This document shows, piece after piece, positions 17,592 to 39,768 of a stretch of DNA of 54,859 nt (positions within the stretch are counted from its first letter, which is position 1; each line of letters starts with the position of its first letter). The notes beneath the pieces are model-generated. The model made no database searches, was not told where the DNA came from, and worked only from the letters and a program-made list of their open reading frames with translations. The position numbers and the translations under genes were made by a program. The stretch comes from Salegentibacter salarius (lineage in GTDB: Bacteria; Bacteroidota; Bacteroidia; Flavobacteriales; Flavobacteriaceae), in the NCBI RefSeq assembly GCF_900168265.1, contig NZ_FVZF01000028.1, positions 1-54,859 on the forward strand, given 5' to 3'.

Positions 17592-18260
17592 ATGTTTTCA
17601 GAATTAATAAATAGCACAGCAATATATATGTTACAGGAATTAAAAGAAGCCTACGGTTTTATTTTTGAAGATGAACTTATTGAAGAGATAAACAAGGTAG
17701 GCCAACTTCAGTTTAAAGCGCAGGGCGAAAAAATTATTGAGATTGGCGATTATGTGAAAATGATGCCTTTACTAATTGAAGGCGCTATTAAAATTATGCG
17801 TGAGGATAAAGATGGAGATGAATTATTATTGTATTTCCTGGAACGTGGCGATACCTGTGCCATGACTCTTTCCTGTTGTCTTGGCCAAACCAAAAGTGAA
17901 ATTAGGGCTGTGGCAGAGCGAGACACAAAGTTAGTGATGATCCCTATTGAAAAAATGGAAGAATGGACTTCGAAATATAAATCCTGGCGAGATTTCGTCT
18001 TTGCGAGTTACCAGGCCCGTCTTACCGAAATGCTGGATACCATAGATACCATTGCTTTTATGAATATGGATCAGCGTTTAATGAAATACCTTGAAGATAA
18101 AGCGAAGATTAATCAAAATGAGGTGATTGCGGTTACACACCAGCAAATTGCATACGATTTACATACTTCACGAGTGGTAATTTCCAGGTTGTTGAAAAAA
18201 CTTGAACTGGACGGAAAGATAAAACTACAACGCAACAGCATAGAAGTAATGGCACTTTAG
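17592..18260 (+). CDS. Crp/Fnr-family transcription regulator, candidate sulfur/redox sensor
   Basis: A 222-residue regulator: cyclic-nucleotide-fold domain (about 30-130), dimer helix, and C-terminal HTH_Crp (THQQIAYDLHTSRVVISRLL). The pocket segment reads GDTCAMTLSCCLGQTKSEIR, so the cAMP phosphate cassette is absent and all three cysteines of the protein (89, 95, 96) sit there. No N-terminal Fe-S cysteine cluster is seen, so it is not a classical Fnr. In the recognition helix the CRP Arg180 and Arg185 positions look kept but Glu181 is Val, fitting a non-CRP target. It lies upstream of the TauE/SafE-cyd operon, whose promoter carries GTAAC-N4-GTTAC. I infer a thiol-based sulfur or redox sensor. 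M13 is an alternative start. Confidence 0.85.
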   Translation: MFSELINSTAIYMLQELKEAYGFIFEDELIEEINKVGQLQFKAQGEKIIEIGDYVKMMPLLIEGAIKIMREDKDGDELLLYFLERGDTCAMTLSCCLGQTKSEIRAVAERDTKLVMIPIEKMEEWTSKYKSWRDFVFASYQARLTEMLDTIDTIAFMNMDQRLMKYLEDKAKINQNEVIAVTHQQIAYDLHTSRVVISRLLKKLELDGKIKLQRNSIEVMAL

Positions 18261-18266
18261 ACCTAT

Positions 18267-18310
18267 GTAACCCTTGTTACTGTACGAGCCCCATATTGCA
18301 AGTACTTTTG
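18267..18310 (+). promoter_or_regulatory. Operator A and promoter of the TauE/SafE-cyd operon
   Basis: The palindrome GTAAC-CCTT-GTTAC is at 18267-18280, followed by TG. The -7 box TACTTTTG (a perfect TAnnTTTG) is at 18303-18310. Exactly 30 nt run from the palindrome end to the last G of the -7 box, the same distance as at operators B, C and D. The palindrome centre would lie near -41.5, replacing the -33 element as at class II Crp/Fnr promoters. Binding by the adjacent regulator is inferred. Confidence 0.75.
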
Positions 18311-18330
18311 CACCGAAATAATATTTAGAT

Positions 18331-19128
18331 ATGGAAATACTAGAAATACTGGGTTACTTTGGAGCATTAATAATTGGAGTTGTCTTAGGTCTTATTGGCG
18401 GCGGTGGTTCTATATTAACGGTTCCCGTGCTTGTTTATTTACTGGCAATTAATCCTGTAACAGCTACGGCTTATTCCCTTTTCGTAGTTGGTGCTTCTGC
18501 TTTAGTGGGTGCGTTTAAAAATATGCAGAAGAAACTGGTAGATTTTAGAACCGCTATCGTGTTTTCTATTCCGGCTTTTATAGCTGTTTATGCCACTCGA
18601 AAATATATGGTGCCCGCCATTCCCGAATCACTTTTTAGTATAGGTGGTTTTGAAATCACGAAAAATATCGGGATTATGCTGTTTTTTGCGATCATTATGA
18701 TTTTGGCTTCGGTCTCCATGATTAGGGAAAATGGCAAGAAAAAAGCAGAAGCAGAAAAAATAAGTTATAACTACCCATTAATTATTATTGAAGGGATTGT
18801 AGTTGGTGTCTTAACCGGGATTGTTGGTGCCGGCGGAGGGTTTTTAATTATCCCAGCCCTGGTGCTTCTGGCTAAGCTCCCCATGAAAAAAGCCGTGGCT
18901 ACATCTTTATTAATTATTGCAATTAAATCGCTTATAGGATTTATTGGGGATGTTCAGAATATGAATATAGATTGGATATTTTTAGCCATCTTCACCGGTC
19001 TTTCGGTAGTAGGAATGTTTGTAGGTATCTATCTCAATAAATTTATAGATGGAAAAAAACTTAAAAAAGGTTTTGGTTGGTTCGTCTTGCTAATGGGTGT
19101 GTATATTATTTGGGCCGAAATCTCATAA
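18331..19128 (+). CDS. TauE/SafE-family sulfite/anion exporter
   Basis: A 265-residue permease with about eight helices in two related halves. Each half begins with a glycine-rich motif: GVVLGLIGGGGSILTVPVL near residue 20 and VGVLTGIVGAGGGFLIIPAL near 155. The family exports sulfite, sulfoacetate and related C1/sulfur anions. It is the first gene behind operator A, right after the Crp/Fnr regulator and upstream of the cyd genes. In this setting sulfite export, the product expected from the persulfide dioxygenase at 31919, is the best guess. Confidence 0.88.
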   Translation: MEILEILGYFGALIIGVVLGLIGGGGSILTVPVLVYLLAINPVTATAYSLFVVGASALVGAFKNMQKKLVDFRTAIVFSIPAFIAVYATRKYMVPAIPESLFSIGGFEITKNIGIMLFFAIIMILASVSMIRENGKKKAEAEKISYNYPLIIIEGIVVGVLTGIVGAGGGFLIIPALVLLAKLPMKKAVATSLLIIAIKSLIGFIGDVQNMNIDWIFLAIFTGLSVVGMFVGIYLNKFIDGKKLKKGFGWFVLLMGVYIIWAEIS

Positions 19129-19166
19129 AATTGAGAACTATTAGAATAGATTAAAAACTGAAATAA

Positions 19167-19619
19167 ATGCATTATAAAAACTACATTTTTGTTGGGATAC
19201 AACTTGTACTTTTTATTGCTTTTATTTTTGAAATAGATACTTTAAAATTTAACCGGCTGGAAGGGCTCCAACCGGTTTTTTTAGTTTTAAGTGGGCTGGG
19301 TTTCTTATTTATACTTATAGCTTTGCTGCAATTAAATACCAATCTGTCACCTTTCCCGAAGCCGAAGAATAATGCTATTTTAATTACTTCTGGGGTTTAT
19401 AAATATGTTCGGCATCCCATTTATTCAGGAATCCTCTTTGCGCTATTTTTTCTGGCCCTGTATTTTAATTCGTTTTATAAGCTTGGCATCGTGCTCTTGT
19501 TAGTTTTACTTTTTAGGTATAAATCAAATTACGAAGAAGAACAATTATGTTTAAAGTATCCAAATTATCGTGATTACCGGCAGAACACCGGTAGATTTTT
19601 CCCTAAATTTATTTGTTGA
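19167..19619 (+). CDS. Isoprenylcysteine carboxyl methyltransferase-like membrane protein
   Basis: A 150-residue protein with about four or five membrane helices and the ICMT/PEMT C-terminal signature: GVYKYVRHPIYSGIL near residue 80, then KSNYEEEQLCLKYPNYRDYR and GRFFP. The family uses SAM to methylate lipid or thiol-linked substrates at the membrane. It lies between the exporter (38-nt gap) and cydA (56-nt gap), so it is probably in one operon with them. Its substrate is unknown. Association with sulfur genes raises the possibility of thiol methylation, which is speculation. Confidence 0.78.
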   Translation: MHYKNYIFVGIQLVLFIAFIFEIDTLKFNRLEGLQPVFLVLSGLGFLFILIALLQLNTNLSPFPKPKNNAILITSGVYKYVRHPIYSGILFALFFLALYFNSFYKLGIVLLLVLLFRYKSNYEEEQLCLKYPNYRDYRQNTGRFFPKFIC

Positions 19620-19675
19620 AAATTATATTGATAAGTCCATATTTAATGGTTTTAAAATCAATAAACTAGAAGTTG

Positions 19676-21073
19676 ATGGAGAATTTAGATTATGCTCGCC
19701 TACAAATGGCCTTTACTTTAGGCTTCCACATTATTTTTGCCTGTATTGGTATGGTAATGCCTTTCTTTATGGTGGTAGCGCACCATAAATGGTTAAAAAC
19801 ACGAAATCCCGTTTATAAAAGATTAAGTATGGCCTGGCTAAAAGGAGTGGCCATTTTTTTTGTAACCGGTGCGGTTTCAGGTACTGCTCTTTCTTTTGAA
19901 CTGGGAATGCTTTGGCCCGAATTTATGAAACACGCAGGGCCAATAATTGGAATGCCCTTTTCGCTGGAAGGCGCTGCATTTTTTGTAGAAGCCATCGCCC
20001 TTGGATTCTATCTCTACGGCTGGAATAAGCTCCCGGAAAAATTTCACTGGTTTACTGGAGTCATTATAGGTGTTTCAGGTGTAGCTTCAGGAATACTAGT
20101 AGTTTCAGCAAATGGATGGATGAATGCTCCCTCAGGCTTCGATTATATTAATGGGGAATTTACTAATATAGATCCTGTTGCCGCCTTATTGAATCCTGCC
20201 TGGTTTACACAAGCTTTGCATATGACGTTAGCTGCCTTTGTAGCCACTAGTTTTGGAGTTGCAGGAATTCATGCTTTTCAAATTTTCCGGAAAAGAAATG
20301 TAGAATTACATACTAAAGCTTTTAAAATCGCAATCATTTTTGGAGCAGTTGCCGCATTTTTGCAGCCAATAAGCGGCGATCTTTCGGCAAAAGATGTAGC
20401 CGAACGCCAACCGGTAAAGTTGGCTGCTATGGAAGCACATTATGAGACCGAAAAAGGTGCTCCGCTCTATATTGGAGGCATTGTAGATGAAGAAAACCGA
20501 ACGGTAACCAATAAAATTGAAATTCCTAATGCTTTATCTTTCCTGGCTTTTGGGGATTTTGATGCCGAAGTAAAAGGATTAAATGATTTCCCTGAAGATG
20601 AACTTCCTCCGGTTGCGATTGTGCATTATGCCTTTCAAATTATGGTGGGGATCGGGACATTATTGATGTTTGCCGGGCTCATTTATTTTATCAGTTTAAA
20701 GAAGAAAAAATTGCTTAATAATAAATATTACTGGCTATTATTTATAGTTGTTGCTCCGCTTGGTTTTGTAGCCATAGAAGCAGGTTGGGTTGTTACCGAA
20801 GTTGGACGCCAGCCCTGGATAATTCACCAGATAATGCGCACCAAAGATGCCGTAACTCCTATGCCTGGAATGAAGTATAGTTTCTTTTTCTACCTGTTTT
20901 TATATACGGTGCTGGGAATAACCGTTACCTGGTTAATGAACCGACAGATAAAATCTCTTAATCAAGAACCCAACGAGGACGGTTCTAAGGAAAATTCCTC
21001 TCAGAAATCTTTTGATCGTGAAAGAGCGCGTAAAAACAATCCTATTAACATGAAGAATAAAAGCAAAGATTAG
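19676..21073 (+). CDS. cydA: Cytochrome bd-type ubiquinol oxidase subunit I (short Q-loop)
   Basis: A 465-residue CydA-type subunit of a terminal oxidase in the inner membrane. Heme ligands visible are H18 (FTLGFHIIF) and H182 (ALHMTLAAF). E98 and E105 in SLEGAAFFVEAIALG match the conserved acidic pair near the oxygen-reducing site, and GRQPW is kept. Its shortness points to the short Q-loop (CIO-like) class. The ATG at 19676 is preferred to the TTG just before it. It is followed after 2 nt by cydB. bd oxidases resist sulfide, which suits the sulfur genes around it. Confidence 0.92.
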   Translation: MENLDYARLQMAFTLGFHIIFACIGMVMPFFMVVAHHKWLKTRNPVYKRLSMAWLKGVAIFFVTGAVSGTALSFELGMLWPEFMKHAGPIIGMPFSLEGAAFFVEAIALGFYLYGWNKLPEKFHWFTGVIIGVSGVASGILVVSANGWMNAPSGFDYINGEFTNIDPVAALLNPAWFTQALHMTLAAFVATSFGVAGIHAFQIFRKRNVELHTKAFKIAIIFGAVAAFLQPISGDLSAKDVAERQPVKLAAMEAHYETEKGAPLYIGGIVDEENRTVTNKIEIPNALSFLAFGDFDAEVKGLNDFPEDELPPVAIVHYAFQIMVGIGTLLMFAGLIYFISLKKKKLLNNKYYWLLFIVVAPLGFVAIEAGWVVTEVGRQPWIIHQIMRTKDAVTPMPGMKYSFFFYLFLYTVLGITVTWLMNRQIKSLNQEPNEDGSKENSSQKSFDRERARKNNPINMKNKSKD

Positions 21074-21075
21074 TT

Positions 21076-22113
21076 ATGTTGTATATAGTGTTATTTTTTC
21101 TGCTGTTTTCATTGCTTTTATATGTGCTACTCGGTGGTGCCGATTTTGGTGCTGGAATTGTAGAATTGTTTTCTTCTGCAAAAAATAAGGAGCATACCAG
21201 AGATACAATTTATAGGGTAATGGGCCCCATTTGGGAGGCAAATCATATCTGGCTTATTATTATGCTTGTAATTTTGTGGGTGGCTTTTCCCGCTTACTTT
21301 AATATCATGATAATCTATTTGCATATTCCTTTAACTTTAGTTTTGCTGGGGATTACCCTGCGAGGTGTGGCTTTTGTTTTTAGGCATTATGATGCGGTGG
21401 TAGATAAATCTCAATTCTGGTATAACTGGCTTTTTAGAATAGGAAGTTTTGTTACACCAGTTTTTCTGGGAATGTCTTTCGGGGCACTTATTGGTGGTAA
21501 AATTATTATTACCGAAGATTATGAAAATTACGGCTTTTATGATCTTTTTATGCAACACTGGCTCAATATTTTTAGCCTGTTGGTTGGTTTATTTTACGCG
21601 GCTCTTTGCGCATTTTTAGCATCCACACTTCTAATTGGTGAAGCCGAAGGTAAAGCCCGAAAGCACTATGCTAGAAACTCGGCATTCTTTACTTCGGTTT
21701 TGGTGGTGCTTGGATTTATTTTAATCAGTTTTGGATATTTCAGCGATGTAAAATTTGCCGAAGATTTTATACATAATCCGGTTTCCCTGGCCTGTGTGGC
21801 TTTTTCCGGAATCTTATTATTTCCGTTGTGGAAATTCATTAAGAAGGAATACCGAATAGCCAGTAGATATTTAGCTGTTTTCCAGGTGATTTTAGTTCTG
21901 TTTGCAGCACTTTACGCTCATTTTCCGTATATAATTATTACTGCAGACAAAGAAGTAAGTTTGCTGGCAAACCTGGCCCCAGAGGCTACGATTAGTAATC
22001 TGGCCATCATGCTTCTTATTGGAGGATTTATAATTTTACCCGGACTTTTTCATTTGATGCGTTCTTTTAATATGATTAAGGTTTTAGAGAAAAATGAGAA
22101 AAAATATGAGTAA
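21076..22113 (+). CDS. cydB: Cytochrome bd-type ubiquinol oxidase subunit II
   Basis: A 345-residue CydB-like integral membrane protein of about nine helices. It starts with the family segment LYVLLGGADFGAGIVELF and continues with GPIWEANHIWLIIMLVILWV. It pairs with CydA to form the quinol oxidase that reduces oxygen to water. The start is 2 nt after cydA, indicating tight co-expression. No cydX-like small ORF or cydDC genes are seen beside it. The 132-nt gap to the next gene may hold an extra promoter, but no clear one was found. Confidence 0.92.
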   Translation: MLYIVLFFLLFSLLLYVLLGGADFGAGIVELFSSAKNKEHTRDTIYRVMGPIWEANHIWLIIMLVILWVAFPAYFNIMIIYLHIPLTLVLLGITLRGVAFVFRHYDAVVDKSQFWYNWLFRIGSFVTPVFLGMSFGALIGGKIIITEDYENYGFYDLFMQHWLNIFSLLVGLFYAALCAFLASTLLIGEAEGKARKHYARNSAFFTSVLVVLGFILISFGYFSDVKFAEDFIHNPVSLACVAFSGILLFPLWKFIKKEYRIASRYLAVFQVILVLFAALYAHFPYIIITADKEVSLLANLAPEATISNLAIMLLIGGFIILPGLFHLMRSFNMIKVLEKNEKKYE

Positions 22114-23531: not shown

Positions 23532-25181
23532 CTAGTGGAATTCATAATCGGTTCCGGGAACCGTTGAAAAAGATTTTTCACCTAAATATTCGCAATAAGA
23601 ACGCCCATCCAGTCTTGGGGAAACCGGGGAGTGCTTTTGCAGGTATTCTTCTACTACTTCGTGAATAGTATAGTCTTGTACCTCAACATTTTTAACGTTC
23701 GGCATTCGGCAAAGATTATCAATGGGGTCACCGGGCCGCACACAGGCTGAAATAGTGTAATACTCATCATCCTGGATTTTCTCGCCATTTACCTTAACCG
23801 ATTTTATACGTTCCCCTTTTTCATTCTGAGAATTAAAATCTACTTCCATTCCAGAGAATCTAACCATCCAGCCGCCAAAACGCTCGGTAGGAGTTTGGGC
23901 AAAGGCATTGTGCATCTCACTTTCCAGCCAGTCTTTTATCTGCTTTCCGGTAGCCTTCCCGGTTTTTACTTTTTCATTTACCGGGAGCACGTTCCATAAA
24001 TTAGCCCGGGTTATAGGCGCAGGTTTTCCGTTCTCGGGAACTATGGGATTTCCAAAACGAAATCCGTTAGAGATAGAAATATCGGCACCGGTTTTCCACC
24101 TTGCTGCATCTGTGATCATATTATCCATTGGGTTTTCCACCGTTAAATATCGGTAAAGTGGCGTTTCGGTATAACCAATTACGGTCTCCAAATGCTCTTT
24201 ATAAGGTTCCTTTGCCTTGCTGACTAGTTTAGCAATTTTAGGATTGGCCGGGTATTTTTTCGGATCAACTTCTAATAACTCATATTCCTCATCTACAATC
24301 TCGCCATTTTTAAAATAAAGATTTAATTTTCCTACAAAAGAGCCAAAAGCTCCGGGTTCGGTAACTTTCGCATATTTCCCTTTAATAGGCTCCCGAACGC
24401 GTTCGTGAGTGTCGTTTCCGAAGATATAATCTACATCTTTAGCAATTGGATTGTTAGCTAATTCTACCTGCTTAAAAATTCCGAAGTGGGTTACCAAAAA
24501 CAGCGCGTCAACTTTCTCTTCTTTTTTTACTTTCTGAATTAGTTCTTCCACGCCCTCGTCTAATCCGCTAAAGTCAATACCTTCACTAAAAATCGGATTT
24601 TGCCTTACAGGAACATCAGGATCGTTTATCCCGATAAACCCAAGTTTTACATCTTCAATTTCTTTAGTCCAGTAGGGTGGAAAAAGCTCTTTTTTATCTT
24701 CCTGGTGAAACATATTCTGAACAATTACAGGAGTTTCAAAACCCTGTAAAACATCCATCATTACTTTCTTGCCATAGACTACTTCCCAGTTACCCGGCAC
24801 TAGAAGGTCGTAATCCATATTCTTTATAATTTCAGGAAAAATTTTTCCTTCAGAAAGTGCGGCATAGCCACTTCCCTGGATAAGATCACCGCCATCAAAA
24901 ATTATGGTATTAGGGTTTTTGGCTCTTTCTTCTTCAAAGAGGGTTTGAATGTGTGCGAGGCCGCCACGTTCTTTAAATACTATTTCTTCATCTTCCCAAA
25001 ATAATTCGGGGTGAGAATCAAGTTGCCCGTGAATATCGGCCGTTTGTAAAATGGTGATTTTAGTGGTTTCATCTATATTTTTCTCCGGGTTTTTACCATT
25101 TGCATTGTTGCAAGAGGTATATAAACCAATGGTAGCAATGCCTGAAAACAGGATCATTGCTGTCTTTAAACTAATTTTCAT
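23532..25181 (-). CDS. SoxB-like metallophosphatase/5'-nucleotidase lipoprotein
   Basis: A 549-residue exported lipoprotein (lipobox LYTSC, Cys24). The metallophosphatase domain has QTADIHGQLD (D49, H51), DGGDLIQGSG (D99) and FGNDTHERV, and a 5'-nucleotidase C-terminal domain follows. Where 5'-nucleotidases have GNHE, this protein has GNWEVVYG (130-137), so the catalytic His is Trp. SoxB thiosulfohydrolases also have W-E-F there (GHWEFTYG). SNGFRFG and RFGGWMVRFSGM also recall SoxB. It is the last gene of an operon with two DsrE-like proteins and DoxX, supporting a sulfur role. No soxXA or soxYZ is nearby. A plain nucleotidase is the alternative. Confidence 0.8.
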   Translation of the reverse strand: MKISLKTAMILFSGIATIGLYTSCNNANGKNPEKNIDETTKITILQTADIHGQLDSHPELFWEDEEIVFKERGGLAHIQTLFEEERAKNPNTIIFDGGDLIQGSGYAALSEGKIFPEIIKNMDYDLLVPGNWEVVYGKKVMMDVLQGFETPVIVQNMFHQEDKKELFPPYWTKEIEDVKLGFIGINDPDVPVRQNPIFSEGIDFSGLDEGVEELIQKVKKEEKVDALFLVTHFGIFKQVELANNPIAKDVDYIFGNDTHERVREPIKGKYAKVTEPGAFGSFVGKLNLYFKNGEIVDEEYELLEVDPKKYPANPKIAKLVSKAKEPYKEHLETVIGYTETPLYRYLTVENPMDNMITDAARWKTGADISISNGFRFGNPIVPENGKPAPITRANLWNVLPVNEKVKTGKATGKQIKDWLESEMHNAFAQTPTERFGGWMVRFSGMEVDFNSQNEKGERIKSVKVNGEKIQDDEYYTISACVRPGDPIDNLCRMPNVKNVEVQDYTIHEVVEEYLQKHSPVSPRLDGRSYCEYLGEKSFSTVPGTDYEFH

Positions 25182-25192
25182 AAATTATCTTT

Positions 25193-25612
25193 TTATAGCT
25201 CTATACTGTAATAGTTCTTATTCTTTTGTAATTGTAAAAGATGCGTAAAGGCGTGGTCTACTACTTTTATGTAGGGATGTAAATCTTTTTTATCAATTTT
25301 TAAATAGTTTATTGAGAGTTTACAAACCTTGATCTCTACGCCCGCAGCTTTAGCTTTTTTTACGTAGTTGTTCATCTTCTCTTTATCTGTAAGCTCCTTA
25401 ACATTTCGTCCATAAAGGACTATCTGAAAATCACCAAATTTGTGACCATCTTCTTGTTTCAGTGCTTCAGCAGTAAGGATTATTGGCTCTAACTGTGGAA
25501 TTTTGGAAGTAGAGACTACATAATTATTCTTCTCAATTCCTGTTTTTGTTTGGGCAAAACCTGAAACGCCTAGCATAAAGACTAAGATTAGAATTCCTAT
25601 TTTTTTCATCAT
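25193..25612 (-). CDS. Exported DsrE-like protein 1
   Basis: A 139-residue protein with a signal peptide (MMKKIGILILVFMLGVSGFA, cut before QTKTG) and a DsrE/DsrF-like fold. The family pattern is FQIVLYGRNVKELTD followed by AAGVEIKVCKLSINYLKID, with one Cys at the position where DsrE-like proteins carry the sulfur-binding cysteine. It would act in the periplasm as a sulfane-sulfur carrier. It is a tandem paralog of the next gene upstream, ends 11 nt before the SoxB-like gene, and shares the C-terminal YYSIEL/YFSIEL. Confidence 0.78.
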   Translation of the reverse strand: MMKKIGILILVFMLGVSGFAQTKTGIEKNNYVVSTSKIPQLEPIILTAEALKQEDGHKFGDFQIVLYGRNVKELTDKEKMNNYVKKAKAAGVEIKVCKLSINYLKIDKKDLHPYIKVVDHAFTHLLQLQKNKNYYSIEL

Positions 25613-25644
25613 CTTGATATTTTATATGATTTAGAATACTTTTT

Positions 25645-26061
25645 TTAAAGCTCTATACTGAAATATCCTTTTTTCTGAAGTTGAAAATCATATAGAATTC
25701 CATTCTCAACAACTTCCATTTCAGATGGAATTTCTTTAGGATCTACACCAAATTTTTTGAGGGAAAATCCACAGGCTTTAAGCGCCACATTAGCTTTTTT
25801 GGCTCGCTGGATAAACTTTTGCATTTGTTCTTTATCGGTTAAGCCTTTTACGGTCTGGCCGCAAACAATAACCTGGAAATCACCAAAATGATGTGCATCT
25901 TCTGCCTGTAATTCTTCCGCAGTAATTAGAATGGGTTGTAACTGCGGAATTTTCTTGGTTAAAACCACATAATTATTCTTTTCAGGATTGTGATTTTGTG
26001 AATTTGTTGTTATTGAAAACAGCATAAAAAAAGCTGTAAAGATTAAAATTGATTTTTTCAT
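25645..26061 (-). CDS. Exported DsrE-like protein 2
   Basis: A 138-residue paralog of the 25193-25612 product with its own signal peptide (MKKSILIFTAFFMLFSITTN). It keeps FQVIVCGQTVKGLTD and ANVALKACGFSLKKFGVD, with Cys in the classical DsrE position plus a second Cys in the IVCG strand that paralog 1 lacks (LYG). The pair probably arose by tandem duplication and could form a heteromer, as DsrE/DsrF do. It sits 30 nt after DoxX and 32 nt before paralog 1 in one operon. Confidence 0.8.
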   Translation of the reverse strand: MKKSILIFTAFFMLFSITTNSQNHNPEKNNYVVLTKKIPQLQPILITAEELQAEDAHHFGDFQVIVCGQTVKGLTDKEQMQKFIQRAKKANVALKACGFSLKKFGVDPKEIPSEMEVVENGILYDFQLQKKGYFSIEL

Positions 26062-26091
26062 TTTTTGAATTTTGATGGCTGAAACAGCCGA

Positions 26092-26499
26092 TTATATTTT
26101 TGTTGTTTGTTGATCTTTAAAATCGTTGAGGATAAAAAACAGGAGTCCGCCGGCTATTGCAATATTTTTAAAAAGCGGCCCCAGTGTTGTAATTTGTCCT
26201 ACCTGCACGGTAAGGGTAATGGGAATTAAAACTGCCAGTAGAATTATGGCTGTCCAGCGAGTTTTGAAACCTATAAGAAGGCCAAGACCCGCAGTAAGCA
26301 TAATCACGCCAGAGAGAATTACCAGTAATTCCGGATTTCCGAAAAAATAGGCGATTCCTTTGAAACTGGCCTGGTCAATTCTATTTACCGTTTTTTCAAT
26401 ATTGAATAAATGGTGTAAACTGGCTACGAGAAATATCCCGCTGAGCATCACCCGTAACAATTGTATAGAGCGACGACTCACTAAAATTTGTGAATTCAT
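26092..26499 (-). CDS. DoxX-family membrane protein
   Basis: A 135-residue protein with four membrane helices and the DoxX layout (RVMLSGIFLVASLHHLFN near the N-terminus, then MLTAGLGLLIGFKTRW). The family includes DoxD-like subunits of thiosulfate:quinone oxidoreductase and many quinone- or redox-linked proteins. As first gene of the DoxX-DsrE-DsrE-SoxB-like operon it could pass electrons from sulfur oxidation to quinone. That is inferred from context. The stem TTCCGAA-N6-TTCGGAA just upstream separates it from the hypothetical gene. Confidence 0.8.
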   Translation of the reverse strand: MNSQILVSRRSIQLLRVMLSGIFLVASLHHLFNIEKTVNRIDQASFKGIAYFFGNPELLVILSGVIMLTAGLGLLIGFKTRWTAIILLAVLIPITLTVQVGQITTLGPLFKNIAIAGGLLFFILNDFKDQQTTKI

Positions 26500-26529
26500 T
26501 TTGATTAAGAATTAGTGAATAAAAATATC

Positions 26530-26549
26530 TTCCGAAGTTATATTCGGAA
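26530..26549 (-). terminator. Inverted repeat, probable terminator of the 118-aa gene
   Basis: TTCCGAA and TTCGGAA form a perfect 7-bp inverted repeat with a 6-nt spacer. On the minus strand it is followed by GATATTTTT, which fits a weak intrinsic terminator between the hypothetical gene and doxX. It could instead be an operator for the DoxX operon. Confidence 0.45.
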
Positions 26550-26559
26550 TTATATATGT

Positions 26560-26916
26560 TTATGCCACTAATGCCTTTGGAGGCGGATAATCTTTAGAAA
26601 AGTAAATGGAAATTATAGCCGGATTCAAATAATTGAAGTCGTGAAAATTGTCTTCAACCTCATTTTCCTGGAATTCTGGATTTGTAATAAAAAAGAAAGA
26701 ATTACATATTGCATCACTACTTATAACCAAAACAGAAGAATCCTGGCTTAAAATATTATCACCGGCTGTTTGCTGATCATTTTTCTTACAAAACGGATTT
26801 ACCAGCGCAATGCCTTCAGAATTCAAAACACTATTAAGCACTTTTGCGTCTAGCATTAGGAATTTTCCGAAGAAAACTACAGTGAATAAAATTGCTATGT
26901 AAGTTTTGAATCTCAC
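26560..26916 (-). CDS. Small exported or anchored protein of unknown function
   Basis: This gene is not recognised. The 118-residue product has an N-terminal hydrophobic segment (YIAILFTVVFFGKFLMLDA) that could be a signal or anchor, an acidic middle with two separated cysteines (NPFCKKND and DAICNSFF), and a C-terminal YPPPKALVA. Small Bacteroidota proteins with such PPP tails are often encoded next to outer-membrane transport genes, and this one is divergent from a porin gene. No homologous family can be named with confidence. Confidence 0.5.
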   Translation of the reverse strand: MRFKTYIAILFTVVFFGKFLMLDAKVLNSVLNSEGIALVNPFCKKNDQQTAGDNILSQDSSVLVISSDAICNSFFFITNPEFQENEVEDNFHDFNYLNPAIISIYFSKDYPPPKALVA

Positions 26917-27018
26917 TATTATAAGAGAAGGGCAAGTTTAGGTTCTTAAAACATGGGCGAAGATAATTAGAAGATTTTGGAATGGAAGTGACTTATGTTA
27001 CAAAGCTTAATTTTAAAA

Positions 27019-27062
27019 GTAATCCTTGTTACTGCGGCTGCCTTTATTATTCAGGAATTTTG
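27019..27062 (+). promoter_or_regulatory. Operator D and promoter of the porin-MFS operon
   Basis: GTAAT-CCTT-GTTAC at 27019-27032, with one mismatch to the palindrome, is followed by TG. The -7-like GAATTTTG is at 27055-27062, followed by CAC as at operators A and C. The distance from palindrome end to the last G is again exactly 30 nt. It implies a transcription start near 27066, so the upstream ATG at 26995 cannot be the porin start. Confidence 0.68.
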
Positions 27063-27087
27063 CACTCCAAACCTGAAAAATTTTGTT

Positions 27088-28217
27088 TTGCAAGACCTCG
27101 ATAAACTTTCTTTTCTCATTGTTTTAATGTTGAGCTTAAATCTTAATGCTCAAATTAATGAGCAACCAGAAGAAGAACGTTTTCACCTGCAAGATATTTT
27201 TTACAACGCAGCACTTAGTGGGAATATTAGAAATTTCTATATGAACACAATAAATAGGGGAGATCTAAAAGACTATTATAGCAATGCAACAGGTGCCACA
27301 GTTGGTCTTACTACCGGAAATTATTATGGTTTTCAACTTGGAGCAAAAGGGAGTTTCACCTACAAAAGCTTTGGGAGCGATTTGGGTAGGGAAGACCCAG
27401 TAACGGGAAAATATGCTAAGTGGTTGCCCCTCGTTCTACGATTAAATGGTTTGCTTTGGATGATGCACTCGGTCTTTTTTATAACGGCTATCAACCCAAC
27501 GGAGAAAAGGCCAACTACCATAATTTTTATCCTTCTTCTGGAATTGGGATCATAAACTATAATTTAAGTAAAAAGGATTTCCAACTTAATTTGTATGATT
27601 TTTACCAGGATAAAGTAATGAATACAATTTGGGCGCAAGTTGCGTATAATCCTGCTGGTTTTAACTTTGGCGTTCAATATGTTTATCAAACTCCTTTTGC
27701 CTACAATGAAGATCTAAATTATAGGAATAGATATGTACAACCCGGAGAAAACGGGCAGGTACTAAGCTCGCAATTGGGTTGGGACCAAGCCGGATTTAAA
27801 TTGGCTTTTGCCTATACCCACGCTTTTGATACCGGCCGGTTTTTATTTCCGAAGGAATTAGGGAGAGATCGCTTTTATACTTCAATTTCACGATCCCGAT
27901 TGGAAGAAATGGGAGATGTTGATGTTTTTGTTTTAAAAACCGAATACCGGTTACCTGGAGATGATTTTAATATTGGAATAGAAATGCAGCAAGTTAGGGG
28001 CGCCAAAGTTGATGACTTTGAATTCAATAAATATAATGTTGATGAGTCTTTTCAGGTAAATAGTCACTTAAATTACCAGGCAAAGGGTTTTTTTGAAGGA
28101 TTGAGTTTTGATATCTTATGGGTTTATAGGAGAAATCAAAACCATACCGATGCAGAAAGTATATTTAACAGAAGTAATTTTAACCAGTTAAACTTTGTTA
28201 CCAATTTCAGTTTTTAA
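27088..28217 (+). pseudogene. Outer-membrane porin, internal deletion plus frameshift
   Basis: Frame 1 from about TTG 27088 encodes a signal peptide (LSFLIVLMLSLNLNAQ) and the start of a beta-barrel porin (FHLQDIFYNAALSGNIRNFY ... GREDPVTGKYAKW). At about 27420 it loses sense and would stop at 27555. A second frame carries on from 27420 with APRSTIKWFALDDALGLFYN through a barrel ending in the aromatic NFVTNFSF. In flavobacterial porins of this kind a strand and loop region of some 60-90 residues normally separates these blocks, so both a deletion and a frame change occurred. The C-terminal part may still be produced. The same operon holds an MFS transporter. Confidence 0.7.
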
Positions 28218-28232
28218 AGTTATAAAACACGA

Positions 28233-29471
28233 ATGAAAAATATAAAATTAGGATTAAAAGAGAACTGGAAGCAATTTAGTTTATTGGTATTGGTGAATGC
28301 CTTTGTTGGCGGGATGGTAGGGCTGGAACGTAGTATTTTGCCCGAAATTGCTGAGAAGGAATTCGGTATTGCCGCCACCAGTGCTATTTTGTCATTTATC
28401 GTAGTTTTTGGAGTGGTAAAGGCTATTTCTAATTATTACGCCGGCGCATTGGCCAACAGGTTTGGAAGGAAAAACTTGTTGGTTTTAGGATGGATTTTTG
28501 CCATTCCAATTCCGTTTATCCTGATTTATGCTGAAAACTGGAACTGGATAATCGCCGCCAATGTTTTACTTGGAATAAACCAGGGATTGGCCTGGAGTAG
28601 TACCGTAGTGATGAAGATTGACCTGGTGGGTGAAAAGCAGCGGGGTTTTGCCATGGGATTAAATGAATTTGCCGGATATTTTGCAGTAGCTGTTGTAGCT
28701 TTTCTTACGGGTTGGGTCGCTTCAGAATATGGCATTAGGCCATATCCTTTCTACCTGGGAATTGGACTTATGATTCTGGGTTTACTCTTTAGTATATTCC
28801 TAATTAAAGATACGCGACACCACGTTGCAAAAGAGGAGGGAAGCAGCGATATGTTGCGATTGAAAAATATTTTCTGGGATACAACCTGGAAAGATAAAAA
28901 CCTTGGTTCCGTTAGTCAGGCTGGGCTAATCAATAATTTGAATGATGGAATGGCCTGGGGCCTATTTCCAATTTTACTTTCTGGAAAAGGTTTTAACCTT
29001 GAAGAAATAGGAATTGTTACCGCACTTTATCCTGCAGTTTGGGGAATAGGCCAACTGTTTACCGGAAGAATGGCCGATATTTTCAGCAAAAAAGATATGC
29101 TGTTTATAGGAATGCTTTTACAGGCCATAGTTCTGATAATTTTAGTTTGGGCTGAATCAATGACTCATTTTGTGATACTTTCTTTTTTACTGGGTTGGGG
29201 AACCGCAATGGTTTATCCGACATTTCTCGCAACCATCGCCGATAGTACCCATCCTCAGGATCGTGCAAAGAGTATTGGTGTTTTTAGACTTTGGCGTGAC
29301 CTGGGATACGCGATAGGAGCTATCTTAACAGGGGTAATTGCGGATTTGGTAAGTATTGAAGCGGCGATTATGTTAATTGGGATTCTAACTTTAATTTCAG
29401 CCGGAATTATTTTTCTTCGAATGGGTTATAATGATAATAAAGCTATTAAATTACTTAAAATGAAAAAATAA
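28233..29471 (+). CDS. MFS transporter
   Basis: A 412-residue major facilitator with about twelve helices. The cytoplasmic loop motif ANRFGRKNLLVLG lies between TM2 and TM3, its counterpart GRMADIFSKKDMLF is in the second half, and LRLKNIFWDTTW marks the central loop. It follows the porin by 15 nt, so both are under operator D. A porin plus inner-membrane carrier suggests uptake or export of a small anion. The substrate is not evident; sulfur anions are possible from context. Confidence 0.85.
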   Translation: MKNIKLGLKENWKQFSLLVLVNAFVGGMVGLERSILPEIAEKEFGIAATSAILSFIVVFGVVKAISNYYAGALANRFGRKNLLVLGWIFAIPIPFILIYAENWNWIIAANVLLGINQGLAWSSTVVMKIDLVGEKQRGFAMGLNEFAGYFAVAVVAFLTGWVASEYGIRPYPFYLGIGLMILGLLFSIFLIKDTRHHVAKEEGSSDMLRLKNIFWDTTWKDKNLGSVSQAGLINNLNDGMAWGLFPILLSGKGFNLEEIGIVTALYPAVWGIGQLFTGRMADIFSKKDMLFIGMLLQAIVLIILVWAESMTHFVILSFLLGWGTAMVYPTFLATIADSTHPQDRAKSIGVFRLWRDLGYAIGAILTGVIADLVSIEAAIMLIGILTLISAGIIFLRMGYNDNKAIKLLKMKK

Positions 29472-30943: not shown

Positions 30944-30987
30944 GTAACAAAAGTTACTGCCTGAAGTGCAGGATTATTATATTTTTG
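30944..30987 (+). promoter_or_regulatory. Operator B and promoter of the hydroxylase / persulfide dioxygenase operon
   Basis: The perfect palindrome GTAAC-AAAA-GTTAC at 30944-30957 is followed by TG. The -7 box TATTTTTG at 30980-30987 matches TAnnTTTG. The distance is exactly 30 nt, as at A, C and D. The transcription start should fall near 30991, about 17 nt ahead of the CTG proposed as the hydroxylase start. Confidence 0.75.
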
Positions 30988-31007: not shown

Positions 31008-31898
31008 CTGGAAAAGTACTTTAACATAATAGCCAATTCCTTTACCGGGTACTTCAATTACCTGGTAAATGAAATTAGCAATCCTTCGTGGACCAATTAT
31101 TTTTATTGGCTTATAGGATTGTCGCTGTTAGTTTGGGTATTGGAGATTGTAATTCCCTGGAGGAAAGATCAAAAGATTTTTCGGAAAGGATTCTGGTTGG
31201 ATACATTCTATATTTTATTTAATTTTTTCCTGTTTTCGCTAGTTGGTTATAATGCGATCTCTAATGTTGCCGTAGAACTATTTAATGATTTCCTGGGCCT
31301 TTTTGGAGTTACTAATATTGTAGCCATAGAAGTGCAAAATTTCCCGGTTTGGGTGCAGCTGCTCATTATGTTTGTGATCGCAGATTTTATACAGTGGAAT
31401 GTTCATCGCCAATTGCACAAGCAGCCCTGGCTTTGGGAATTTCATAAAGTACATCACAGTGTTAAAGAAATGGGGTTTGCTGCGCAGTTTAGGTTTCATT
31501 TTATGGAAACTGTAATCTATAAATCGGTGCAGTATATTCCTCTTGCAATGATAGGTTTTGGGATTCAGCAATTTTTTGTGGTACATATGTTCGCAGTGTT
31601 TATTGGACATTTAAACCACGCCAATGTGGGCTGGAATTACGGTATTTTTGGTTATCTTATTAATAATCCAAAAATGCATATCTGGCATCACTCTAAAGCG
31701 CTTCCGGAAAATAGACCATACGGGATGAATTTTGGCTTAAGCCTTAGTCTTTGGGATTATTTGTTTGGTACGGCATATATTCCGCAGGAAGGAAAAAATA
31801 TAGAACTTGGTTTTGAAGGAGATGAGGAATTTCCTGAAGATTTTAAAAGTCAGATGACTTTTCCATTTAAAAAGAAGAACATACAGAAATCAACTTAA
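31008..31898 (+). CDS. Fatty acid hydroxylase / sterol desaturase family protein
   Basis: A membrane di-iron enzyme of about 296 residues. The His clusters are HRQLHKQ, HKVHHS, HLNHAN and HIWHHSK. An open frame continues upstream of TTG 31119 back to 31002 and encodes LEKYFNIIANSFTGYFNYLV, a family-like N-terminus. No ATG, GTG or TTG precedes it, so CTG at 31008 is the likely start; if not, TTG 31119 would give 259 residues. It is first in the operon with the persulfide dioxygenase (20-nt gap). Its part in sulfur metabolism is unknown. Confidence 0.8.
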   Translation: MEKYFNIIANSFTGYFNYLVNEISNPSWTNYFYWLIGLSLLVWVLEIVIPWRKDQKIFRKGFWLDTFYILFNFFLFSLVGYNAISNVAVELFNDFLGLFGVTNIVAIEVQNFPVWVQLLIMFVIADFIQWNVHRQLHKQPWLWEFHKVHHSVKEMGFAAQFRFHFMETVIYKSVQYIPLAMIGFGIQQFFVVHMFAVFIGHLNHANVGWNYGIFGYLINNPKMHIWHHSKALPENRPYGMNFGLSLSLWDYLFGTAYIPQEGKNIELGFEGDEEFPEDFKSQMTFPFKKKNIQKST

Positions 31899-31918
31899 TA
31901 ATTAAAAAGAGACATAAA

Positions 31919-33265
31919 ATGAAAATAAAACAATTTAAAGACGAACCCCTGGCGCATTATTCTTATGCCTTTGTAAGTAATGGAGAAATGGCAGTGGTAG
32001 ATCCCAGCCGTAATCCTATGCAGTATTACAAATATGCTGAAGATAACGACGCAAAGATTGTTGCAGTTTTTGAAACGCACCCACACGCCGATTTTGTAAG
32101 TGGACATTTACAAATTCAGGAAGAAACAGGTGCTAAAATCTATATTAGTGAAAAAGTTGGGGTAGATTACCCGCACACTCCTTTTGATGAAGGTGATGAG
32201 GTGAAAATAGGAAGTATAAGTGTAAAAGCTTTACATACACCTGGTCACTCGCCAGACAGTTTAACTTTTATTGCTGAAGAAAAAGGAGAAACGGCTATGT
32301 TTAGTGGAGATACCCTTTTTATAGGAAATGTGGGTAGACCAGATTTACGTGAAAAAGCCGGTAATATGAAGGCAAAACGTGTAGAACTTGCAAAGCAAAT
32401 GTATAACACGATGCAGACCAAATTCAACGATTTGCCAGACGATACAATAATTTATCCAGCTCACGGGGCAGGTTCGCTTTGTGGGAAGAATATGAGTGAT
32501 GCTTCTTCCAGCACACTTGGAAATGAGCGCCAGGGAAACTGGGCATTTAAAGATCAGACCGAAGAAGAGTTTGTGGAAGAGATCTTAAAAGATCAGCCTT
32601 TTATTCCTGCTTATTTCGGTTTCAATGTAGACCTAAATAGAAATGGAGCTCTAAACGTGCAGAAAGCGAAATATGAAGTGCCAGTAAAGCTTTATGTAGA
32701 TGCAGCACCAGAAGAAGGAAAGACCATAGTAGATGCTCGAGATGGTGATGCTTATAAAAATGGACATTTGCCAAACAGTATCAATATTATGGCTAGATCA
32801 GAAAGTGATAAATATGAAACCTGGTTGGGAGCTATCATCAAACCAAACGAAGAGTTTTACCTGGTAGTTAATAGCGTAGATCAAATTGATGAGCTGTTGG
32901 AAAGAACAGCAAAAGTAGGCTACGAAAAGCAAATGAAAGGTGTTCTTACTTTATCTGAAAAAGTTTCTAAATCTTCAGATGATTTTGATCTAAAGGATTT
33001 CAAAGAAAACAAGGATAAATATACTATTGTAGATATTAGAAATGCAGGAGAACTTGCTGAAGGTAAAATATTTGAAAATGCTGAGACAATTCCTTTAAAC
33101 GAGCTAAGAGACCGTGCCGATGAGTTACCGGAAGATAAGCCATTTATGGTGCACTGTGCCGGTGGATATCGCTCTGCGGCTGGAAGCAGTATTCTTGAAA
33201 ATAAATTTAAGAATACCAAAGTGTACGATCTAAGCGAAGCGATTAAAGAATTTAACGACAAGTAA
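31919..33265 (+). CDS. MBL-fold persulfide dioxygenase (ETHE1-like) with two rhodanese domains
   Basis: A 448-residue fusion. Residues 1-240 are a metallo-beta-lactamase fold with THPHADFVSGH (H54, H56, D58, H63), HTPGHSPDSL and SGDTLFIGNVGRPDL, the ETHE1/Blh pattern that oxidises glutathione-type persulfide to sulfite. A first rhodanese domain (about 255-345) lacks the active Cys (FYLVVNSVDQ). The second (about 355-445) has the loop HCAGGYRS with Cys near residue 412. The protein would link sulfane transfer to oxidation in the cytoplasm. Sulfite made here could leave by the TauE/SafE exporter. Confidence 0.92.
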   Translation: MKIKQFKDEPLAHYSYAFVSNGEMAVVDPSRNPMQYYKYAEDNDAKIVAVFETHPHADFVSGHLQIQEETGAKIYISEKVGVDYPHTPFDEGDEVKIGSISVKALHTPGHSPDSLTFIAEEKGETAMFSGDTLFIGNVGRPDLREKAGNMKAKRVELAKQMYNTMQTKFNDLPDDTIIYPAHGAGSLCGKNMSDASSSTLGNERQGNWAFKDQTEEEFVEEILKDQPFIPAYFGFNVDLNRNGALNVQKAKYEVPVKLYVDAAPEEGKTIVDARDGDAYKNGHLPNSINIMARSESDKYETWLGAIIKPNEEFYLVVNSVDQIDELLERTAKVGYEKQMKGVLTLSEKVSKSSDDFDLKDFKENKDKYTIVDIRNAGELAEGKIFENAETIPLNELRDRADELPEDKPFMVHCAGGYRSAAGSSILENKFKNTKVYDLSEAIKEFNDK

Positions 33266-37607: not shown

Positions 37608-37754
37608 ATGAGCGTGTCTGAAACTACTGCATCAAATATAAAATTCGAAAGAAAAAAGTTAGAACTGGAATTTGAAATTTCCAGAAAGATTCGTGAAGAT
37701 GGCATTTTACTGAACCAGGTTTACGATGAAACTATACTACCGGAATGGGAGTAA
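37608..37754 (+). CDS. Small conserved-looking protein, 48 aa
   Basis: A 48-residue hydrophilic, charged protein (MSVSETTASNIKFERKKLEL... ending ETILPEWE). Its stop overlaps the ATG of the dehydrogenase at 37745 by 10 nt, and the start has a purine-rich lead (AAAAAAATTA), so it looks like a real, translationally coupled small gene. No family is recognised. A predicted helix covers most of its length. Confidence 0.5.
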   Translation: MSVSETTASNIKFERKKLELEFEISRKIREDGILLNQVYDETILPEWE

Positions 37755-38647: not shown

Positions 38648-38676
38648 TTAGAAAAAATCTTTATTTATATTGTTTG

Positions 38677-38702
38677 AAACCCTGAATTTATTTTCAGGGT
38701 TT
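38677..38702 (+). terminator. Terminator after the hydroxyacid dehydrogenase gene
   Basis: AAACCCTGAA at 38677-38686 pairs perfectly with TTCAGGGTTT at 38693-38702, followed by TTATTATT. It insulates the next promoter, operator C. Confidence 0.7.
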
Positions 38703-38721
38703 ATTATTATAGTTTCAGGCT

Positions 38722-38765
38722 GTAACAATTGTTACTGTCTTACTGGAAAAATTCTAGTTAATTTG
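38722..38765 (+). promoter_or_regulatory. Operator C and promoter of the YeeE/YedE pair
   Basis: The perfect palindrome GTAAC-AATT-GTTAC at 38722-38735 is followed by TG. The -7-like box TTAATTTG at 38758-38765 is followed by CAC. The distance from palindrome end to last G is again exactly 30 nt. The start codon of the first YeeE gene is 22 nt further on. Confidence 0.75.
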
Positions 38766-38787
38766 CACTTCGAAAAAAATAAGAACT

Positions 38788-39345
38788 ATGGAATGGATTT
38801 TTGAGCCGTGGCCCTGGTATGTATCGGGCCCGCTAATAGCTTTAATAATGTTTTTACTCATCTTTATCGGTAAAGGTTTTGGAATGTCTTCCAACCTAAG
38901 AACGATGTGTACGCTTTGTGGTGCAGATTCTAAAGCCGATTTTTTTGATTTTGACTGGAAATCACAACGCTGGAATCTTATTGTTGTAACCGGCGCTATT
39001 ATTGGCGGATTTATAGGAGCAAACTTCTTAAGTAACGATCTATCGGTAGCTATTAATCCTGATACGATTAATACCCTCGAAGAACTGGGCTTTAGCAGTG
39101 CGGGAGAAGCTTATCTTCCTACCGAACTTTATAGCTGGGAAGCCGTAGGCGGGATTAAAGCATTAATTATTCTATTAGTTGGCGGAATCTTAATTGGTTT
39201 TGGAGCGCGTTATGCCGGAGGTTGTACTTCAGGACACGCAATTTCAGGACTAAGTAATTTGCAATTACCCTCTTTAATAGCTGTAGTAGGCTTTTTTATT
39301 GGTGGTTTGGTAATGGTGCATTTATTATTTCCGTTAATATTTTAA
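38788..39345 (+). CDS. YeeE/YedE-family sulfur-compound permease, first half
   Basis: A 185-residue membrane protein of the YeeE/YedE (TsuA-like) family, which imports thiosulfate or sulfane sulfur. The key motif with the conserved Cys is ARYAGGCTSGHAISGLS near residue 145. A second MCTLCG pair of cysteines lies near residues 40-45 after the first helix. It is followed after 9 nt by a second YeeE-type protein. The two together make one permease of the usual bipartite form in Bacteroidota. Confidence 0.9.
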   Translation: MEWIFEPWPWYVSGPLIALIMFLLIFIGKGFGMSSNLRTMCTLCGADSKADFFDFDWKSQRWNLIVVTGAIIGGFIGANFLSNDLSVAINPDTINTLEELGFSSAGEAYLPTELYSWEAVGGIKALIILLVGGILIGFGARYAGGCTSGHAISGLSNLQLPSLIAVVGFFIGGLVMVHLLFPLIF

Positions 39346-39354
39346 ATTGAAATT

Positions 39355-39768
39355 ATGAGAAGTATAGGATATTTATTGATAGGTATATTTTTTGGAATCG
39401 TAATGTTTAAATCTGAAGCTGCTTCCTGGTTTAGGATCTATGAGATGTTCCAGTTCCAGTCATTTCATATGTATGGAATTATTGGTTCAGCCCTGGTTTT
39501 AGGAGTTATAGGCGTTCAAATTATAAAACGGAAAAACCTGAAATCTTTTTTCGGGCAGCGAATAACATTTATTCCGAAGGAAAAAAGTTTTAGCCGTTAT
39601 ATGTATGGTGGGATTATCTTTGGATTAGGTTGGGCGCTTGCAGGAGCCTGTCCGGGACCTATTTTTACTTTAATTGGCGCAGGATTTATGCCAATATTAA
39701 TTGTATTTGCAGGATCACTTTTAGGTACTTTTTTGTACGGATTGCTTCGGAAGAAACTTCCGCATTAA
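39355..39768 (+). CDS. YeeE/YedE-family (DUF6691) permease, second half
   Basis: A 137-residue membrane protein with four helices and the counterpart motif FGLGWALAGACPGPIFTLIG near residue 95, again with a central Cys. It completes the YeeE/YedE permease with the 38788 gene; both are under operator C. In E. coli-type homologs the two Cys-containing half-motifs form the thiosulfate path. Placement here suggests import of thiosulfate or transfer of sulfane sulfur. Confidence 0.88.
   Translation: MRSIGYLLIGIFFGIVMFKSEAASWFRIYEMFQFQSFHMYGIIGSALVLGVIGVQIIKRKNLKSFFGQRITFIPKEKSFSRYMYGGIIFGLGWALAGACPGPIFTLIGAGFMPILIVFAGSLLGTFLYGLLRKKLPH

Follow-up and report, generated by a model that had tools for sequence, protein, structure and literature searches.

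Introduction

Marine habitats exposed to sulfide commonly harbour Bacteroidota. The hallmark of the Fe-S protein FNR is an N-terminal cysteine cluster, and the ligands of HcpR and FNR are heme or Fe-S. FisR, CstR/YrkD, SqrR/BigR and NreBC belong to protein families other than Crp/Fnr. According to the parts of the reports on which we draw (PMC9918477, PMC8148161), the latter group controls the same kinds of enzymes that are considered here, i.e., SQR, PDO, rhodanese and DsrE/TusA, and CstR and YrkD use cysteines. The ligand of CprK is chloroaromatic according to the available part of PMC12937710, and in Acinetobacter the PDO, SQR, TauE and cytochrome bd genes are induced by sulfide, as described in the part of PMC8148161 used here. 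A search of the open literature, in which the term "Crp/Fnr" is poorly searchable, found no sulfur-stress regulator of Bacteroidota.

In the window (the whole stretch of DNA that was analysed, 54,859 nt), a Crp/Fnr-type regulator gene stands beside operons with sulfur genes. Comparison with many relatives suggests that the adjoining regulator probably switches on these sulfur operons when reactive sulfur appears.

Results and Discussion

The Regulator

The gene at 17592..18260 (+ strand, 222 aa as listed) was assigned by Pfam and by an alignment of 81 orthologs, and the scores of 38.1 bits for PF00027 (cut-off 27.5) and 31.9 bits for PF13545 (cut-off 27) place its product in the Crp/Fnr superfamily. 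Met13 (at 17628), conserved in 90% of the 81 rows, may be the real start. The only cysteines of the protein are Cys89, Cys95 and Cys96, all within the cyclic-nucleotide cassette, and the sequence has no FNR-type N-terminal cysteine cluster. The three are invariant in 81/81 close orthologs, with the Cys89 column biased because the 80 named loci were found partly via the peptide ERGDTCAM, which includes this residue. In farther relatives the cysteines are less fixed: L233 (Val at position 195, i.e., V-type, 54% identity) is without Cys95 and Cys96, and GTAAC sites are also found next to V-type regulators that lack this CC pair (3/18), so it is conservation on which the idea of a sensor is based. 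The AlphaFold monomer model is mediocre (mean pLDDT 77.6, residues 92-97 under 50) and supports no claim about the geometry of the cysteines; compared with known structures, it matched CAP, NtcA and FNR with TM 0.4-0.6, and the foldseek matches include FNR, HcpR and CprK. The structure-model alignment contained 27 rows of 33 (out were a stop-codon row, L049, L077, L082, L095 and L096).

Operators, Promoters and Target Operons

The sequence-only reading had located exact GTAAC-N4-GTTAC palindromes at 18267, 30944 and 38722, plus one with a single mismatch at 27019, and had described a TG after each site and 30 nt from the site end to the last G of a TTTG box. All of these are present, and in all four cases the TG is followed by exactly N26, TTTG and then C. 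A fifth site on the minus strand (26988-27001) had been overlooked, and the TTTG, correctly recognised, belongs to a longer -7 box, TAnnTTTG. At up to two mismatches, the window holds 29 palindrome matches, a number that 0/100 shuffles equalled (mean 16.5, largest 28).

Operator 1 (18267..18280, + strand, exact, GTAACCCTTGTTAC) is followed by the box TACTTTTG (18303..18310, +), with a predicted start near 18315 when the box is positioned as in the part of PMC9723704 used here. It precedes operon 1 (18331..22113, +), which was delimited by Pfam matches and by co-directional genes with short gaps, and comprises TauE/SafE (18331-19128), an ICMT-like gene (19167-19619), cydA (19673-21073) and cydB (21076-22113), all on the + strand. 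Operator 2 (27019..27032, +, GTAATCCTTGTTAC) has one mismatch, with exact copies in the relatives L039 and L040, and its box GAATTTTG (27055..27062, +) also has one mismatch to TAnnTTTG. Operon 2 behind it (27088..29471, +) consists of a PorN/PorC protein of unknown family in two frames, apparently broken when compared with the 456 aa version in L039/L040, and an MFS transporter (28233-29471, +); the former had been named a porin, a name that finds no match in a Pfam search of the gene.

Operator 3 (30944..30957, +, exact, GTAACAAAAGTTAC) with the box TATTTTTG (30980..30987, +) precedes operon 3 (31119..33265, +), which encodes a fatty-acid-hydroxylase-family protein (PF04116) and a persulfide-dioxygenase-like protein with a metallo-beta-lactamase fold and rhodanese (PF00753 + PF00581), the latter scoring 57.3 bits on the NCBIfam sulfur transferase/dioxygenase model, below its cut-off of 625. 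Operator 4 (38722..38735, +, exact, GTAACAATTGTTAC) with the box TTAATTTG (38758..38765, +, one mismatch) precedes operon 4 (38788..39768, +), composed of two YeeE/YedE-type sulfur transporter halves (PF04143, DUF6691). Operator 5 (26988..27001, − strand, GTAACATAAGTCAC, one mismatch) is followed after N22 by TATCTTCG (26958..26965, −, one mismatch) and faces operon 5 (23532..26916, −), in which Pfam and NCBIfam denote a 118 aa protein, a DoxX-like protein, two DsrE-like proteins and a 5'-nucleotidase/SoxB-related protein (23532-25181; 256 bits on the SoxB model TIGR04486, below the cut-off of 550). A counterpart of operator 5 (at most one mismatch, correspondingly placed upstream of the 118 aa gene) was found in 10/12 named loci having that gene, and the box behind it is TAnnTTTG in seven and TAnnTTCG in three of these ten relatives. 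For genes of unknown function such as that of the 118 aa protein, the regulon suggests a link to sulfur. A one-mismatch palindrome at 40629 before a reductase gene was not counted; it has no TTTG at N26, and TACTTTTG stands directly behind it.

The TG was rejected as a part of the operator. The base preceding the site is T in 86% (named-loci comparison), a symmetric operator would thus need A after the site, and T is found there (78%), so that the TG presumably represents a -33 element. In the promoter map of Flavobacterium psychrophilum, in the part of PMC9723704 used here, the box lies at -12 to -5, and therefore the operator centre would be at -41.5. Promoters mapped in a related genus in this way lend support to the class II placement put forward from the sequence, and the predicted position would be that of a class II activator.

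Whole-Genome Scan and Conservation

In the 3.33 Mb Salegentibacter-like genome, GTAAC-N4-GTTAC occurs exactly seven times, versus four for the pattern read backwards. Three of the seven lie in the window with TTTG exactly 26 nt downstream, and the other four are inside ORFs (Nramp-like, SulP-like, gldM-like and topoisomerase-like, names read from the translations without a family search) and on neither strand have TTTG at this distance. A scan of the genome had been proposed by the sequence-only reading, according to which its regulon would be contradicted if neither this genome nor its relatives showed an enrichment of the motif ahead of sulfur genes; the outcome did not contradict it. When operator and TAnnTTTG were combined (16 specified bases, up to two mismatches), eight sites were obtained versus four for the reversed pattern, five within the window and three elsewhere, and a gene with a sulfur link follows 7/8, with the porin-like/MFS operon tied by position only. 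Genes behind these sites include a type III SQR (after C20:83706; 654.7 bits on NF049943, cut-off 525) and a double rhodanese; the gene after C12:66284 reached 184.5 bits on the same model, below the level for a type III SQR.

Among 199 genomes of the same family, the exact composite is present in 131/155 genomes with a close regulator ortholog (E<1e-50) and absent from the other 24, versus 5/44 with a weak ortholog or none (Fisher 1.9e-19, where kinship among the genomes makes p-values optimistic). This sample yielded 328 composite matches and 35 for the reversed control, about nine-fold fewer. The exact site with TTTG occurs in 72 of the 80 named loci and is missing from eight, and TTTG stands at N26 in 120/351 site orientations and at most eight times at any other of 77 offsets. 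Eight other palindromes served as a weak control, four being absent and the rest having 2-10 occurrences. Neither chance nor composition explains the pattern, judging from the shuffles and from comparisons with reversed patterns, with other palindromes and with other offsets. The exact site with TTTG, when looked for in named relatives, precedes TauE in 49/66 cases, the hydroxylase gene leading the PDO operon in 17/17 and YeeE in 8/10, and it was not found before ICMT (0/22), cydB (0/32) or methyltransferase (0/29) genes. The downstream-gene survey covered 40 loci, and L189 and L208 gave no downstream ORF.

The Recognition Helix and the Operator Base

The recognition helix of the regulator reads S193-R194-V195-V196-I197-S198-R199, and the operator base covaries with residue 195. 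Among 59 single-type loci, those with V195 have GTAAC sites in 10/29 and GTGAn in 0/29, while loci of E195 relatives have GTGAn in 8/30 and GTAAC in 0/30, GTGAn having been widened from GTGAC after the data were seen. Of 11 spacings compared, N26 gave the highest counts. GTGAC-N4-GTCAC, predicted beforehand for the E-type, gave 10 matches in 7/22 genomes versus one for the reversed control; in G256 one of these matches directly follows the E-type gene, and in G310 another directly follows the E-type paralog. The 3.6 kb E-type loci showed no convincing palindrome with a box, and the sites came from wider loci and whole genomes. In one genus, G306 (V-type) has three composite matches, and the eight genomes with only an E-type matched regulator have one in total. 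The regulator tree (78 sequences) needs five E/V changes, four of them forced by supported branches. The system provides a naturally occurring case in which operator specificity shifts along with a single residue of the helix. Genome-wide, the code has exceptions, since 6/27 phylum-sample genomes with an E-type matched regulator hold GTAAC composites (seven matches by hand count, two in G379; reversed control, two matches). One GTGAC-type match was also seen for L101 (V-type).

Proposed Mechanism and Alternatives

The 17592 gene product would be an activator of the Crp/Fnr fold. Its dimer would occupy GTAAC-N4-GTTAC, with the centre at -41.5, and act in the class II manner, bringing RNA polymerase to sigma-A promoters with TG at -34/-33 and TAnnTTTG at -12 to -5. 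The regulon would be a sulfide/persulfide detoxification and oxidation set, with SQR, PDO-rhodanese, rhodaneses, TauE sulfite export and YeeE sulfur transporters, together with a sulfide-tolerant cytochrome bd and the DsrE/SoxB-like operon. Operator specificity would arise from R194 and V195; the valine, found where E is usual, would favour A rather than G at position 3 of the half-site. We infer binding and activation, and hold this explanation of regulator, operator and regulon as a whole with good confidence. The leading candidate for the signal would be sulfane sulfur (polysulfide/persulfide), detected through Cys89, Cys95 and Cys96, which are located at the place where Crp binds the cyclic nucleotide; on the identity of the signal, our judgement is evenly balanced.

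As the sites lie close together in the window and the relatives are of common descent, the spacing could be a coincidence or be inherited with copied promoters. This is hardly credible, given that operator-box spacers differ among target genes and genera, that the N26 peak survives the removal of copies more than 70% identical (80/267), and that 35 reversed-control matches stand against 328. The site could also be read by one or more other Crp/Fnr paralogs, with the adjoining regulator as a bystander: seven proteins of the genome (G000) have a cNMP-binding match, and the paralog L153, whose helix S-T-R-A-V-V-N-R has R-A at the specificity positions, might conceivably recognise a site of this kind. 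However, at E<=1e-10 only the 17592 gene matches in its own genome, and L148, L149 and L151 read S-E, V-E and P-E at the specificity positions, residues that we take to be FNR-like. Site presence across genomes follows the 17592 ortholog, the site often lies directly behind its gene in relatives, and operator and helix vary together, all of which makes other readers improbable.

Repressors as a rule bind at varying positions and overlap the core promoter. Here, the operator ends at -35 beside the TG (-34/-33) and keeps one fixed distance to the box across genera, the layout of a class II activator, so we give little credence to a repressor that sulfur releases from these sites, even if CstR and SqrR, which are known to regulate in response to sulfane sulfur, are repressors according to the part of PMC9918477 used here. 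A different signal for the same regulator and sites, such as redox, O2 or NO via a cysteine-held metal or Fe-S, or an organic effector, would make the sulfur genes one branch of a wider regulon. It is suggested by cydAB in the first operon, the Cys-rich loop, the structural matches to FNR, HcpR and CprK, the sensing of O2/NO by FNR and HcpR relatives, and targets in other genomes that are not plainly sulfur genes. We consider it rather unlikely, as sulfur genes are the recurrent targets across many genera, the FNR-like cysteine cluster is missing, and in Acinetobacter cytochrome bd is among the genes induced by sulfide itself, along with PDO/SQR/TauE (PMC8148161, in the part used here).

The sulfur-responsive activator may belong to something broader, and we suggest tentatively, leaning a little to the side of doubt, a Bacteroidota-wide Crp/Fnr clade in which a three-cysteine sensor of sulfane sulfur (C-A-M-T/S-x-x-C-C) replaces the cyclic-nucleotide cassette. 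Within the phylum, it would be the principal activator of sulfide/persulfide oxidation, and it would be the first Crp/Fnr persulfide sensor; one E/V exchange in the recognition helix would, on several occasions, have switched its operator between GTGAY and GTAAC. What can now be scanned for in any genome is a defined operator with its promoter position, the regulator and the list of targets.

Comparison with Known Systems

The protein fold is common to E. coli CRP/CAP and the system described here, and the layout predicted here, with the site at -41.5, would be that of the class II promoters of CRP/CAP. The Arg180-equivalent of CAP is presumably kept in the regulator and the cAMP-binding cassette residues of CRP presumably are not. 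CAP mutants with Glu181 changed to Val accept A:T for G:C at the same base pair. Unlike E. coli CRP, the regulator has a natural V195 and a half-site GTAAC instead of TGTGA, and it scores 50.8 bits on the cAMP-CRP equivalog model PRK11753 (cut-off 266). Cyanobacterial NtcA has R-V in its recognition helix and a GTA-N8-TAC site, both of which we take to match the regulator and its operator, and its model TIGR03697 is the second-best NCBIfam model of the regulator (43.2 bits, below the cut-off of 244.95). NtcA is not known to have the Cys cassette, and it controls nitrogen, whereas the regulon here concerns sulfur. HcpR of Porphyromonas, FNR and CprK share the Crp/Fnr fold (foldseek matches), with operators that differ from GTAAC-N4-GTTAC. 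As far as the parts of the sources used here describe them, FisR is a sigma-54 activator and the regulators FisR, CstR/YrkD, SqrR/BigR and NreBC are mostly repressors, unlike the regulator at 17592, which we propose to be an activator.

Operator Sites and Target Genes

The sequence-only reading had placed four operators at 18267 (TauE-cydAB), 27019 (porin-like/MFS, one mismatch), 30944 (hydroxylase-persulfide dioxygenase, PDO) and 38722 (YeeE/YedE), and inspection confirmed them all with the same geometry, namely GTAAC-N4-GTTAC, TG, exactly 26 nt, TTTG and C; the list was incomplete, since a fifth window site on the minus strand (27001->26988) had been overlooked. A genome-wide scan for operator plus TAnnTTTG (16 bases, up to two mismatches) gave eight composite matches, against four for the reversed pattern, and five of them are these window sites. 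The minus-strand site faces an operon of 118-aa, DoxX, two DsrE and SoxB-related genes, while the other three lie upstream of two rhodaneses and a small protein (C12:74096), a type III sulfide:quinone reductase (C20:83706; 654.7 bits, cut-off 525) and a flavoprotein resembling this enzyme (C12:66284), whose 184.5 bits fall below the same cut-off of 525. Thus, sulfur-linked genes are faced by seven of the eight sites; for the porin-like/MFS operon, the link is one of position only. The porin-like gene (within 26995-28217) occupies two reading frames and looks broken, or mis-assembled, because the segment between residues 112 and 193 of a 456 aa relative (in locus L039) is absent near 27423, while residues 1-112 and 193-456 align.

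The palindrome with up to two mismatches occurs 29 times in the window, a number attained by 0 of 100 dinucleotide shuffles. Exact palindromes number seven in the 3.33 Mb genome (backwards control four); three are window sites, and the remaining four (L001-L004) lie within ORFs and have no TTTG at the N26 offset on either strand. Upstream of a pyridine-nucleotide reductase gene there is also a one-mismatch site (40629-40672; ATAACGAAAGTTAC followed immediately by TACTTTTG), which, if functional, would overlap the core promoter and cause repression.

A study on Flavobacterium psychrophilum places TAnnTTTG, the sigma-A box, between -12 and -5 (PMC9723704); therefore, the operator would end at -35 and be centred at -41.5, with the conserved TG at -34/-33, which supports the earlier placement at about -41.5. 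Class II activators have their sites arranged in this way, and from this position we infer activation by the regulator.

Conservation in Relatives

Among 80 loci around regulator orthologs (the best 80 of 284), exact palindromes in 351 orientations had TTTG at N26 in 120 cases and at any other of 77 offsets in at most 8; once near-copies were removed, the count was 80/267. In 72/80 loci, exact sites with TTTG were present once or more. Such sites precede TauE in 49/66 cases (one-mismatch in 6 more), the hydroxylase gene in 17/17 and YeeE in 8/10, so the enrichment before sulfur genes that had been named as a test was indeed found, and they also precede the porin-like gene (3/5) and PDO (10/49, one-mismatch in 3 more); many PDO genes may be second in their operon, which would lower the latter figure. 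None was found in these loci before ICMT (0/22), cydB (0/32), HlyIII (0/10), cydA (0/35, one-mismatch in 3), two methyltransferase genes (0/29 and 0/13), accC (0/10) or MFS (0/5). In 10/12 loci, the 118 aa gene is preceded by a site that has no more than one mismatch and is followed by a box at N26 (one site exact; box TAnnTTTG in seven, TAnnTTCG in three). In L042, no site was found within 300 nt of this gene, and in L041 (Salegentibacter salinarum) an inserted gene for an alpha-acetolactate-decarboxylase-like secreted protein (L041:18814-19518) separates it from a perfect operator on the minus strand.

A wider survey of forty sites in other genomes, mostly chosen distant from the regulator, and of further sites in relatives added a TsdA/SoxA-type cytochrome, a molybdenum sulfite-oxidase-type protein, and thioredoxin, peroxiredoxin, SulP, rhodanese and YgaP-like genes, together with targets of unclear sulfur link (outer membrane efflux proteins, aldehyde dehydrogenase, Tll0287-like and heavy-metal-associated proteins). 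The efflux gene is a repeated target in other Flavobacteriaceae (L185 by Pfam OEP; L186, L187, L188, L191 and L197 by sequence similarity).

The exact composite was present in 136/199 family genomes (own genome included), with 328 matches in total versus 35 for the reversed pattern. It occurred in 131/155 genomes with a regulator match at E<1e-50, 3/12 with a weaker match only and 2/32 without a match at E<=1e-10; regulator-less genomes are often smaller, and the Fisher value of strong-match genomes versus the rest (1.9e-19) is optimistic given relatedness. A hand count in 198 genomes of the phylum gave 17/29 (E<=1e-50) versus 8/169 others.

Proposed Recognition Code

In the recognition helix T-S-R-V-V-x-S-R of the regulator (gene 17592..18260, plus strand), R194, V195, V196, S198 and R199 are invariant in an 81-row alignment, and in more distant relatives residue 195 is E, as in CRP, where E181 is responsible for recognizing the G:C pair in TGTGA. 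Because of this code, GTGAC-N4-GTCAC was predicted for E-type regulators before searching. Ten matches were found in 7/22 chosen genomes (reversed control one); the 10 E-type genomes account for seven of them, and two immediately follow the gene of an E-type regulator (in G256, and for the second paralog of G310).

Sixty loci were compared with the box taken as TT[TA][GA]. In the 59 with a single type, GTAAC occurred in 10/29 V-type and 0/30 E-type loci (p 3e-4), and GTGAn, a widening made after GTGAT copies were seen, in 0/29 and 8/30 (p 5e-3); ten alternative spacings gave at most four each. The remaining locus (L317, G310:C2:432220-442795) holds V-type and E-type paralogs with GTAAC and GTGAC promoters together, the latter, as read from the sequence, upstream of a YgaP-like membrane protein gene. 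The regulator tree (78 rows) requires five E/V changes, four forced by supported branches. Against this code stand GTAAC composites elsewhere in 6/27 E-type genomes (hand count; seven matches, reversed control two) and a GTGAC-type match in 1/80 V-type loci (L101).

On comparative sequence evidence, the regulon and its operator are strongly supported, and co-occurrence and covariation make the identity of the regulator well supported, while that of the inducer is an educated guess. No prior description of the regulon was found in the literature searched, which had blind spots.

Cysteines and Known Regulators

The only cysteines of the regulator, 89, 95 and 96, lie in what we take to be the counterpart of CRP's cAMP-binding cassette; for this reason, cAMP is unlikely as its ligand and thiol chemistry is a likely signal mode. 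All 81 close orthologs retain these cysteines, but not all more distant ones do; the predicted structure, of modest quality, contributes the fold only. Several members of a sister clade (L316-L340) keep Cys89 and have lost Cys95/96 (ESCIMSFLGG); two of them (L332, L340) still adjoin GTAAC sites, upstream of thioredoxin-like and TauE genes, and the signal of this clade may differ. Published sulfane-sulfur regulators also use cysteines (PMC9918477), although their protein families differ.
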